Source: Bacteroidales bacterium (GTDB taxonomy: Bacteria > Bacteroidota > Bacteroidia > Bacteroidales > UBA12077). From it: 38,039 nucleotides of DNA. The position numbers were made by a program, and so were the translations under genes. The DNA is taken from NCBI GenBank assembly GCA_022360575.1, contig JAKSCO010000197.1, positions 1 through 38,039 on the forward strand. The letters are read 5' to 3'. Below are positions 5,843 to 29,349 of this stretch, piece by piece. Every line of letters starts with the position of its first letter. Positions within the stretch are counted from its first letter, which is position 1. The notes under the pieces were generated by a model. That model searched no databases. It saw only the letters and a list, made by a program, of their open reading frames with translations, and had not been told where the DNA came from.

Positions 5843-5870
5843 ATACCCAAAGAACATCAAAATGAGTGAT
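5843..5870 (+). repeat. Dispersed 28-bp end motif, copy 1
   Basis: The 28 bases differ at one position from the copy at 20299-20326; the core is ACATCAAAATGAGTGAT. Diverged relatives are found in the opposite orientation at about 28149-28178 and 29324-29349. Here it stands just before a 21-bp tandem array. Confidence 0.7.
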
Positions 5871-5874
5871 AAAA

Positions 5875-6150
5875 ATGAGGAATCGACCAGGAATACTGTT
5901 TGATGAGCTCATCGGCATGAATTCGCTTATCATCAGAATGACTTGGGGTGTAATCAAAATGAGTTGTTCGTCGGTAATAATGTCAGATTAAGCGGTAATA
6001 ATGTCAGGGGAACTCATCAGAATGAGTTCGATCATCATCAGAATGACTTGGGGTGTAATCAAAATGAGTTGTTCGTCGGTAAGAATGTCAGGTTAAGCGG
6101 TAATAATGTCAGGAGGACTCATCAGAATGAGTTAGGAATATGCTAGAATG
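5875..6150 (+). repeat. 21-bp tandem repeat array with 105-bp higher-order period (array 1)
   Basis: The ATG of a unit resembling ATCAGAATGAGTT occurs at 5917, 5938, 5959, 5980, 6001, 6022, 6043, 6064, 6085, 6106, 6127 and 6148, exactly 21 bp apart; a further in-phase unit is at 5875. Units come in a fixed cycle of five: ...GAATGACTTGGGGTG, AATCAAAATGAGTTG..., two GGTAATAATGTCAG... units, then CATCAGAATGAGTTCG. The 105-bp blocks starting near 5938 and 6043 are nearly identical. Because 21 is a multiple of three, a heptapeptide-repeat frame stays open (5943-6146), but I treat that as a by-product. The same array occurs inverted at 29009-29262. No spacers or leader of CRISPR type are present. 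Confidence 0.85.
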
Positions 6151-6494
6151 AACAGTTACATTATCAAAATAAAAAATTACAACTCCATTATATAAGGAGA
6201 ATACGCAATAACAAGAAAAACTACAAAACAAGGATGTTTGTTATATACCTATATCTCAAGTAAATTTGGAATTGTTGTTTTAGATTTCTAATTTTAGTTC
6301 TGACAAAATTTTAAATGATATTCGAAAAGGGATTATTGATATGAGAAACAATAAAATCAATATTTACATTAAGTAATTTGTCATTTTTTTAGGTAATGCA
6401 AAGTCTGAGCCTGAAAAAAGCTTTTTTATACTAGCTATACAAAAACTAGCTCGGGTGCAAGACATTGCTATTTTTCAATTTAAAATATTTATTT
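6151..6494. other. Intergenic stretch without a recognisable gene
   Basis: No credible coding region is seen. An open stretch ending at the TAA at 6374-6376 could encode about 25 residues (DIRKGIIDMRNNKINIYIK at its end) but has no proper start and matches no family I know, so it may be a gene remnant. An AT-rich palindrome AAAAAAGCTTTTTT lies at 6414-6427. The region presumably carries the promoter of the gene at 6495. Confidence 0.4.
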
Positions 6495-7136
6495 ATGAAA
6501 AAATCATTAGTAAATTATTTCAGGATGATAGATGTTACTTCGCAGTATATGCACCAACACGAAACAATTTGGAGCAGCACTGCTATGATTGCTAACTGTG
6601 TTACTGAAATAGAAAAAGTAAATGTAGATCGAATTACTGCCGAACAGGCATTGGGCGACTCGAAGGTTTATCTTTCTGAAAAGAAAAACGAAATCAAAAA
6701 AATCTTATCGCGCAAACTAGATGGCATTAATGATGTTATTTGTGTGTATGGCGAAATAAACAACAATGCCGACATGGCAAAACGCATGGATAAAAGCGCA
6801 TCTAAATTATGGAGCATGAGAGACGAAGAATTTGTTGCAGAATATAAAACAATTATAAGCACAGCAACAAAACTAACCGAGCAATTGGCCGATTATGGAA
6901 TAAATAAAGACGTAATTGACGATGCTCAAAACTATGGCAACATGTTTATCGAAATAGATAACAAGCCACGTTTGTATCGCACCGAAAGTGCTAAAGCTAT
7001 AGAGAAACTTAATCAGATTAAACATAGCTATCAAAACTTGCTATCAAAACTTGATCGGTTAATGAAAATTTATCAGAATCGCAATTCTGAATTCTATGCC
7101 GGATACTTAAGATCCCGAGGTGTAGTAAATAATTAA
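6495..7136 (+). CDS. Hypothetical helical protein of unknown function
   Basis: This is a 213-residue protein with the start chosen at the ATG at 6495 (MKKSLVNYFRM); an in-frame start at 6465 would add ten residues of hydrophobic sequence with no support. The sequence is almost entirely predicted alpha helix, rich in Lys, Glu and Asn, with no signal peptide, membrane segment or known catalytic motif. The C-terminal part (KLDRLMKIYQNRNSEFYAGY) resembles the end of uncharacterised four-helix-type proteins that I recall from Bacteroidota, where a pattern like LDxLMxxYxxxNxxFYxxY recurs; this is recollection, not a database match. It stands alone between a repeat array and a convergent ABC operon. 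I assign no function. Confidence 0.6.
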   Translation: MKKSLVNYFRMIDVTSQYMHQHETIWSSTAMIANCVTEIEKVNVDRITAEQALGDSKVYLSEKKNEIKKILSRKLDGINDVICVYGEINNNADMAKRMDKSASKLWSMRDEEFVAEYKTIISTATKLTEQLADYGINKDVIDDAQNYGNMFIEIDNKPRLYRTESAKAIEKLNQIKHSYQNLLSKLDRLMKIYQNRNSEFYAGYLRSRGVVNN

Positions 7137-7221
7137 AATTTTAAACGCAAATTACTTATAGTATTTCCCTTTTCGAATTCTCATACTTAAGATAGCTTCA
7201 AAAGTGGCTTCAACTCCCCTT

Positions 7222-7287
7222 CAACTCCGCTCAGGGAACTACCCAGCCACCAGAAATGCCCGGTCACTGAGCGGAGCCAAAGTGACC
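7222..7287. repeat. Palindromic intergenic repeat
   Basis: CTCCGCTCAG (7225-7234) and CTGAGCGGAG (7267-7276) are perfect inverted copies, and GGTCACT (7262-7268) pairs with AGTGACC (7281-7287), so two alternative hairpins are possible. Its GC content is well above the surroundings. Sequences with CTCCGCTCAGT / ACTGAGCGGAG cores are a common dispersed type in Bacteroidota genomes as far as I recall. Confidence 0.55.
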
Positions 7288-7292
7288 AAAAC

Positions 7293-14807: not shown

Positions 14808-15246
14808 ACGCTTATATTTTTAAAAAATTAATATTATTTCTATTTATTGTTCTTTTTTGCAAAAATTGTTTTTTATCTCTCGGGTATATTAAATCATAAA
14901 ACCTTTAATATTCAAGGCTCAACACTTGATCCTTGCAACATTAATAATGTGTATTAAACTTTATTTATCACAAAGACTTCATCTACTAAGGCTTACACAC
15001 AACAAAAATCATTACACACAATGTATTTATCTCGATTATTTGTGCCTAAAAAATAATTCATGATGCAATCTGTTTGTCGCTTTAATTTACACCAAGCAAT
15101 TATATGAAAAAATAATTATTTTGTTACATAATAGTGGAAATTGTGAATCTTTTCTACAATCAAACTGAGAGTAAAATTTCATCTTGAATCTATCAAAAAA
15201 TAAAGTGATTTAAAAAATGGAATCTGTAAGTAAAGTAAAAAAAGAA
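14808..15246. other. Intergenic region with no recognisable gene
   Basis: The region is AT-rich with many stops in all frames. I see no tRNA, conserved RNA or repeat matching the rest of the window. It must hold the promoter for the TPR gene and the transcription end of the SRP RNA (T-rich on the minus strand at about 15230-15246). Confidence 0.5.
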
Positions 15247-15343
15247 GGGCAAGCTACTTACATCGCACCGCTACAACCTTCTACCCTTGCTATCTTCCGA
15301 TCCTGGGGGAGTTCAAAGGGAGCTGGTCGTGTAAGACTTGCCC
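15247..15343 (-). ncRNA. ffs: Signal recognition particle RNA (4.5S, small bacterial type)
   Basis: Read on the minus strand, the ends GGGCAAG and CTTGCCC pair, and the apical part carries CCAGGATCGGAAGATAGCA, the conserved SRP hairpin with GGAA tetraloop and the asymmetric loop that binds the M domain of Ffh. The 97-base length fits the small bacterial type. On the minus strand the 3' end runs into TTCTTTTTTT, a terminator-like T tract. The promoter upstream is a near-perfect Bacteroidota type. The RNA guides ribosomes making membrane proteins to the membrane with Ffh and FtsY. The exact 5' end may lie a few bases upstream, since the promoter spacing points to about 15345. Confidence 0.92.
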
Positions 15344-15350
15344 GAGGGCA

Positions 15351-20286: not shown

Positions 20287-20317
20287 CAAAAGTAAATAAT
20301 ACCCAAAAAACATCAAA
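20287..20317 (-). promoter_or_regulatory. Promoter of the acyl-CoA reductase gene, -33 box inside a repeat
   Basis: On the minus strand TTTG (20317-20314), a 19-bp spacer and TACTTTTG (20294-20287) match the Bacteroidota consensus as well as the SRP RNA promoter does. The TTTG belongs to the dispersed motif at 20299-20326. The start codon follows at 20271. Confidence 0.75.
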
Positions 20318-20326
20318 ATGAGTGAT
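20299..20326 (+). repeat. Dispersed 28-bp end motif, copy 2 (solo)
   Basis: This copy is identical to 5843-5870 except for one base (A for G). No 21-bp array follows. Further on, TTTTTATAAATCCCTCACCTT (about 20339-20359) in reverse resembles TGAGGGATTTGTAAAAA at 28034-28050, so the repeat may extend to about 20360. Confidence 0.7.
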
Positions 20327-20374
20327 CGAAACGTTTCCTTTTTATAAATCCCTCACCTTAAAATTTATTTGGCA

Positions 20375-27821: not shown

Positions 27822-28102
27822 CTACTTATGTTTTTAAATTTTGTATTATTCGGTTTGTGTTGTTAATAATTTAGATCATACAATATAACAACCCTTTACA
27901 CAAAAAGTTTATTCAATACAAATTGAATAAGAAAACTATTCCTCAGAATGACAATAAAAAATGGGGTTTTAATTTTTCAACCAATAAAACAGAAGTAGCG
28001 TATCGAAAATATTATACCAAATGGATTTCAAGATGAGGGATTTGTAAAAATGAATAATTTTTGTCTTAGACACGACGAAACAGTAAAAGATAGCCGAGTT
28101 AT

Positions 28103-28172
28103 CTTGCAACTTTTTTGGCAATGGATAAGGCAAAAAGAAACTTTTTTACCACTCATTTTGATATTCTTTTGG
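28103..28172 (+). repeat. Dispersed 70-bp repeat, copy A
   Basis: Begins CTTGCAACTTTTTTGGCAAT and continues with AAGGCAAAAAGAAAC and ACCACTCATTTTGATATTC. It matches 29280-29349 in the same orientation with scattered differences. Its right end (ACTCATTTTGAT...) is the reverse complement of the 28-bp motif found at 5843 and 20299. Confidence 0.7.
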
Positions 28173-28361
28173 TATTATACCCTGAGTTCGATTCTAAATA
28201 AATCCATATTAGTCCTTACCTACCCAAGGTATTTGGGTGTATTACTTCTTAATATATGGAATTGTTTGTTTAAGAAATAAAACTCCTTTTTCTGTTGCAA
28301 GTTTGTACCTAAAATTTGCGGCAGTGGGAGAATGTTGATTACCTTAATGCGTATTCACCTC

Positions 28362-28800: not shown

Positions 28801-29008
28801 TTATTCGCAAGACTCATGAGATCGCTTCGCTTAGTTCACGAGCGGGATGAGCTTCGGACTTGTGGGAGTGAGTATCTACTTGGTTCTTTAATCTCAAAGA
28901 ACAGAAAGAAAATATATTATGAGCGCTCTCATTGTTTGCGGTTGTACACGTTGCGTCAACACGACTATTTATTGCGATGAGCTAATCCTATATTTTTACT
29001 ATTCAACA

Positions 29009-29262
29009 AGTCATTCTGGTGATGATCGAACTCATTTTGACGAGCTCACCTGACATTGTTACTGATCAACATGACATTCTTACCGACGAACAACTCATTC
29101 TGATTACATCCCAAGTCATTTTGATGATGATCGAACTCATCCTGATGAGCTCACCTGACATCATTACCGCTTCGCCTGACATTCTTACCGACAAACAACT
29201 CATTCTGATTACATCCCAAGTCGTTCTGATGATGAACAAACTCATTCTGATAAGTTCACTTA
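29009..29262 (-). repeat. 21-bp tandem repeat array with 105-bp higher-order period (array 2, inverted)
   Basis: CAT (ATG on the minus strand) recurs at 29012, 29033, 29054, 29075, 29096, 29117, 29138, 29159, 29180, 29201 and 29243, with CGT in phase at 29222: always 21 bp. Read on the minus strand, the units follow the same order of five as array 1 (ACTTGGGATG, GTTGTTCGTC, two GGTAA..ATGTCA units, GTTCGATCA). Unit variants differ by a few bases. Frames stay open on both strands because the period is seven codons. The 70-bp repeat copy B adjoins it at 29280. Confidence 0.85.
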
Positions 29263-29279
29263 ACTTTGTTATGGTTTTC

Positions 29280-29349
29280 CTTGCAATTTTTTGGCAATGA
29301 CTAAGGCAAAAAGAAACACTTTTACCACTCATTTTAATGTACTTTCGGG
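29280..29349 (+). repeat. Dispersed 70-bp repeat, copy B
   Basis: Begins CTTGCAATTTTTTGGCAATG, then AAGGCAAAAAGAAACAC and ACCACTCATTTTAATGTAC. It is a diverged direct copy of 28103-28172 and borders the 21-bp array 2 in the same relative order as the 28-bp motif borders array 1. Confidence 0.65.

Follow-up and report, generated by a model that had tools for sequence, protein, structure and literature searches.

In the window, the whole 38,039-bp stretch of Bacteroidales DNA analyzed here (contig C169 of a 3.6 Mb assembly of 362 contigs), a gene for a 213-aa protein lies downstream of a non-coding tandem array of 21-bp units (array a). The pairing of this gene with such an array is class-wide in Bacteroidia, with the array at the 5′ side of the gene and its pitch fixed. 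The initial annotation of this DNA had described the array and did not mention its link to the neighboring gene. The arrangement points to an unrecognized DNA–protein pairing, and we put at roughly one in two the probability that the genes encode DNA-binding proteins of one family, every member having a phased array of its own in front of its gene, with dispersed orphan arrays in addition. The features of the window are collected in Table 1.

Table 1. Features located in the window
Feature	Position	Strand	Description
MITE right terminal repeat	5844–5875	−	MITE positions 129–160, 96.9%; joins the 3′ end (unit strand) of array a
Array a	5908–6159	−	Twelve 21-bp units (CATT cores on this strand), five-unit 105-bp cycle
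Leader	6135–6204	−	On the other side of array a from the MITE end; short inverted repeat CTCC..GGAG
Family gene	6495–7133	+	213-aa protein, predicted all-helical; start 345 bp after array a
Small SRP RNA	15243–15350	−	Bacteroidales small SRP RNA, Rfam RF04183, 109 bits
Short MITE copy	20300–20372	−	Internal deletion, both terminal repeats kept
Full-length MITE copy	28015–28174	+	95%, TTA/TTA target duplication
Array b	29007–29262	+	Second type-1 array, 105-bp cycle; orphan, no family gene adjoining
MITE right half	29276–29348	+	MITE positions 85–158, 86.5%; directly 3′ of array b

Array a is a non-coding array with a five-unit cycle

The repeat structure proposed in the initial annotation was seen exactly as described: on the + strand, an ATG recurs at 5917, 5938 and onward to 6148 in steps of 21 bp with zero slippage. 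The set of five units forming 105-bp blocks was likewise recovered by TRF, which reported a period of 105 bp with 2.2 copies, 92% matches and 0 indels over 5908–6133. Read on the minus strand, the unit is (C/G)(T/A)CATTnTKAYnR followed by ~9 variable bases, and its five kinds recur in a fixed order. Scanning with the unit profile placed 12 of 13 hits in one phase, the odd hit belonging to the MITE terminus on the left of the array. The interval first given, 5875–6150, holds a real array; its start falls in the MITE terminal repeat. The leader on the opposite side is shared only with a short array on contig C255 (92%).

Twenty-one base pairs correspond to two turns of B-DNA and also to seven codons. 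Reading frames had been expected to stay open through the repeat, which proved wrong: stops occur in all six frames, and array a is non-coding.

The gene family is paired with upstream arrays at a 21-bp pitch

The genome carries three paralogs of the gene beside array a (C72, C118, and C31), and all four family genes have a 21- or 42-bp array within 0–352 bp upstream. The C72 and C118 proteins are 69% identical and their genes follow arrays of AT-rich 21-bp units, while the array at C31 has a 42-bp period. A palindromic repeat of the kind GGTCACTGAGCGGAGCC...AAGTGACC occupies 7210–7290 of the window, and the C31 array ends in a stretch resembling it (L388, ~600–640).

Homologs were present, patchily and often in several copies, in 45 of 396 Bacteroidia genomes (~11%). 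Those from further genera and families within the order (G003, G053, and G026) also have upstream arrays, built from other units; in G023 the clearest array lies downstream of the gene. Across 37 unique loci, a 21- or 42-bp array was found upstream in 21 and downstream in 2 (two-sided p ~7e-5 against an even split). A lag scan of the 33 homologous loci with at least 500 bp on each side, covering lags 12–63 at a threshold of z ≥ 5.5 and using the downstream flank as an internal control, gave lag 21 above threshold upstream in 20 of 33 loci and downstream in 2 of 33. Lags 42 and 63 followed as multiples of 21, and every other lag from 12 to 63 exceeded the threshold upstream in at most one locus. 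The median upstream z was 6.9 at lag 21, against 1.8–2.1 at lags 18–20 and 22–24 and 2.5 at lag 21 downstream. In 13 of the 33 loci, no upstream lag-21 signal passed the threshold, so an array is not a fixed companion of the gene. Two array-less family members (L395 and L397) have instead a conserved gene of ~300 aa directly upstream, with 36% identity.

Most arrays lie less than 400 bp 5′ of the start codon, array a (345 bp) being farther away than most. None of the genes neighboring the gene–array pair was generally conserved, and no replication or partition gene is conserved beside it. Similarity between units correlated weakly with similarity between proteins on the gene strand (Mantel p = 0.014) but not on the opposite strand (p = 0.118), a relation that could reflect descent alone. 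The C72 and C118 units are closely related on the same strand (0.86); distant proteins mostly lack related units.

The 21-bp period recurs in unrelated arrays

An autocorrelation census covering 0.84 Mb of this genome detected 38 non-coding tandem regions, 22 of them with a fundamental period of 21, 42, or 63 bp. Other periods were 41 bp (six regions), 22 bp (two), 20 bp (one), and 40 bp (one). The six 41-bp arrays (L252, L260:1-282, L305, L311:497-753, L313:508-931, and L320) have a period of about four helical turns. Non-coding arrays of 14 bp were also noticed in two genomes of the genus (L241, L247, and L282; L366 and L367 in G016), with ATCAAGACACAAGATAT-like and CTATGGACTATCAACTATC-like units. 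In 396 kb of a same-genus genome, two non-coding 21-bp arrays were found, a background rate that comes from this one relative.

Unit profiles split the 21-bp arrays of the genome into distinct types, several of which join a gene-linked array to others: array a groups with seven orphans, plus the C255 array by BLAST (type 1); the C72 and C118 gene arrays group with the orphan C217b; and the C31 gene array groups with the orphans C32 and C53. The pitch of 21 bp is common to arrays across the class, and the unit sequences differ almost everywhere. Array a had no match among 24 other genomes of the family, nor did blastn find one in 58 relatives, because units differ from genome to genome; the relation between arrays of different genomes is visible only by a period search.

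Type-1 arrays are dispersed, keep their phase, and often abut a MITE

A genome-wide search found at least eight further arrays of the same type as array a, dispersed over the assembly: C15, C26, C35, array b in the window, C189, C217, and C293, with the short form on C255. When spacings of 18–24 bp were permitted in a gapped-pattern search of the genome, the spacing was 21 bp in every array match, and 117 of 119 matches in the unit-profile scan shared one phase within their locus. The array is thus neither a single occurrence nor free of constraint on its phase, the two outcomes against which the initial annotation had set its reading. The five-unit cycle is kept at several type-1 loci despite sequence divergence of up to about one-third; at C35 the cycle has six units (126 bp). 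Ungapped comparison of array a with the C169b, C189, and C293 arrays gave 32, 45, and 55 substitutions and no gap. Copies of a MITE in the same genome differ by 226 substitutions and 12 indels, a ratio at which ~7 indels would be expected per 132 substitutions; this figure is rough, as the three array comparisons share a branch.

This MITE is ~160 bp long and present in at least 40 dispersed copies. It has imperfect terminal inverted repeats of ~35 bp, a 3-bp TTA/TAA target duplication in 15 of 19 complete copies, and no long ORF. The initial annotation had offered a mobile non-coding repeat as one of two alternatives, which gains support from the non-coding state, the dispersal, and the MITE association of the arrays; its other alternative, a phased platform, is nevertheless favored, as described below. 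Taken further, the arrays could be selfish minisatellites, that is, functionless repeats enlarged through slippage or unequal exchange and carried about as cargo or passengers of the MITE, with the gene at most a chance or hitch-hiking neighbor. Six of the nine type-1 arrays end in a MITE terminal repeat or abut a MITE, in each case at their 3′ side and with one constant orientation, compared with 8.8% of random intergenic sites near a MITE; an array of a different 21-bp type on C23 (L260:15300-15563; TTTTGCAAAGATAGACGGTCT) terminates, like array a, in this MITE's terminal repeat; copy number varies, the C255 array having no 105-bp repeat and array a two; and a comparable 23-bp minisatellite lies within a MITE in Porphyromonas gingivalis (PMC4596501). 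We nonetheless consider this explanation unlikely, as it leaves unaccounted for the exact pitch of unrelated arrays in many families of the class, their position upstream of one gene family, and the phase kept in type-1 arrays through 15–32% divergence.

The MITE is likely part of how type-1 arrays moved. Its right repeat alone caps array a and the C189 and C255 arrays, and no matching left repeat was found there. The arrays on C15, C217, and C293, like most other 21-bp arrays, have no MITE, and the MITE is therefore not a defining feature of the arrays.

The protein family resembles no known transposase or nuclease

The 213-aa protein had no match in Pfam, NCBIfam, PADLOC, PHROGs, or PDB. Searches with the protein's own domain gave no curated family above cut-off, no confident match to a solved structure, and no recognized DNA-binding fold, and a single-sequence structure model of the protein was poor (pLDDT 43), too weak for a fold search. 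In the alignment, one protein has an additional CarboxypepD_reg/PEGA-like domain at its C terminus.

RAYTs have been proposed to drive the birth, upkeep, or spread of REPs. By a comparable route, the gene product might serve as an amplification factor for the repeats upstream of its own gene, driving their birth, upkeep, or spread and seeding the orphans. The coexistence of orphan and gene-linked arrays of the same type in this genome would suit such a factor, as would the patchy distribution of the gene and its multiple copies in some genomes. However, no similarity to a transposase or nuclease was found in the family, whose alignment lacks an invariant acidic or HUH-like set, and single-protein queries found no relatives on plasmids, phages, or viral contigs. 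We regard this role as improbable.

Conservation within the unit follows the DNA helix

Within the unit, the power of the conservation signal was elevated at one and two cycles per 21 bp, reaching 0.36 where column shuffling gave 0.20 ± 0.027 (0 of 5000 shuffles). The phased platform for protein binding or DNA bending put forward in the initial annotation is favored because unrelated units keep exactly 21 bp and because conservation follows the helical period; that a protein is what binds there is our inference.

The array might instead function in the transcript: it would form a long 5′ leader, and its repeated units would bind the protein or another factor as RNA. The closeness of most arrays to the start codon agrees with this, as does the single orientation of type-1 units relative to the gene ending beside them at eight of nine loci. 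On the other hand, the 21 arrays analyzed showed no excess of RNA structure (mean z −0.33 sense and −0.23 antisense), and two B-DNA turns are not a period of A-form RNA, so an RNA-level role ranks among the poorer candidates, a little below the amplification factor.

That the arrays encode heptapeptide repeats is close to refuted: some are open in one frame (L408, L428, and L420) and array b overlaps ORFs of 93 and 130 aa, but neither the open frames nor the 3-bp conservation signal of protein-coding heptad repeats was found, as any sense frame was open in 6 and any antisense frame in 5 of 21 arrays against 4.1 expected from column shuffles, the 3-bp conservation power (0.054) fell below the null (0.10), and stops interrupt every frame of array a.

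Comparison with known repeat systems

Plasmid Rep-iterons and ParR–parC likewise consist of phased tandem sites directly upstream of a gene for a small protein, and sites and protein change together; they operate in the manner that we propose for the arrays here. Array a shares with them its place adjacent to and upstream of a gene. The arrays described here differ in being chromosomal, often multicopy, accompanied by orphans, and far more divergent, and no replication or partition partner gene is conserved beside them. CRISPR arrays also present direct repeats beside a gene, but the divergent 21-bp units here are contiguous, with no repeat/spacer structure and no cas homology.

The nearest described system is BrickBuilt of P. 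gingivalis, a minisatellite/MITE of 23-bp units with ~19 dispersed copies (PMC4596501). That report also notes 22- and 41-bp repeats, the 41-bp repeats of P. gingivalis lying in a MITE. BrickBuilt likewise belongs to Bacteroidota and combines intergenic, spacer-free tandem units each spanning about two helical turns, a leader and tail, and MITE terminal repeats. Array a has the constant-length, spacer-free direct repeats; it is not enclosed by terminal inverted repeats in leader and tail, as only the right MITE repeat is present. In BrickBuilt, moreover, the unit is 23 bp long with indels of up to 6% reported, whereas it is exactly 21 bp here, and BrickBuilt has one unit sequence in one species group with no linked gene family described, whereas here there are many units and a protein family.

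The (C/G)TCATT start of the unit recalls many CGTC- and CCTC-tagged REPs (PMC3733652), which are also non-coding and intergenic. Unlike those REPs, the units here lack a palindromic second arm, and other 21-bp types lack the tag. No hairpin corresponding to the CGTC REP stem was found in the array units, and no such REP was found within 231 kb of the genome. A pattern scan of GTDB and IMG-VR returned many 18–24-bp arrays with GTCATT cores in unrelated bacteria. Reading array a as a half-REP array was considered and rejected, since no palindromic arm is present in its units and a MITE repeat forms its end.

The same scan brought up tandem 18–24-bp half-REP arrays in unrelated bacteria (GTDB loci L066, L070, L078, L080, L085, L093, L099, L107, L113, L129, L130, L136, L153, L163, L168, L176, and L178), in which one end is a complete hairpin REP. 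Their units are of the form GTCATTTCGACC... or CTCATTCCGAC..., the hairpin REP is, for example, GTCATTTCGACCGAAGGGAGAAATCT, and the second arm occurs in the last unit only; the search pattern did not select for the hairpin. The arrangement suggests growth in one direction beside a REP. On five viral contigs (L203, L204, L194, L209, and L216), copies of GTCATTTTGAC are clustered with 22/23 and 14–16 bp between them; these are possibly the multiple terminal sites of a transposon, an IS21-type idea that concerns these viral contigs only.

In the open-access literature, which is what the search covered, we found no description of gene-linked 21-bp arrays; an earlier one may exist in subscription papers.

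A proposed module of protein and phased array

We propose, as the simplest reading, that the gene and its array together make up a chromosomal module of two parts, the gene encoding a helical protein of ~213 aa and, just upstream, a tandem array with an exact 21-bp pitch. Each protein would bind its own unit, a single protomer or dimer occupying every 21 bp and all of them sitting on the same helix face. Such binding could cover the promoter region of the protein's own gene with a cooperative nucleoprotein stretch, giving autoregulation, and might also mark other sites by forming the same stretch on orphan arrays. If protein and unit change together, the letters would diverge while the pitch stays. 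The type-1 arrays, several of which carry a MITE terminal repeat as a cap, probably spread within the genome with the aid of this MITE or by way of it. The pairing, the position of the array, its pitch, and its non-coding state are observations, while binding, cooperativity, and autoregulation are inferred. More tentatively, the module may represent an undescribed, class-wide family of chromosomal DNA-binding proteins in Bacteroidia, with a private array of two-turn pitch for each gene and, in some genomes, scattered arrays of the same type, in which binding specificity would be free to evolve under a fixed geometry.

Such a family would supply naturally matched pairs of protein and site with which DNA recognition and helical phasing could be studied. 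It would also give a possible role to a protein family that has had no name until now, and might explain the recurrence in these genomes of minisatellites whose period is about two or four helical turns.
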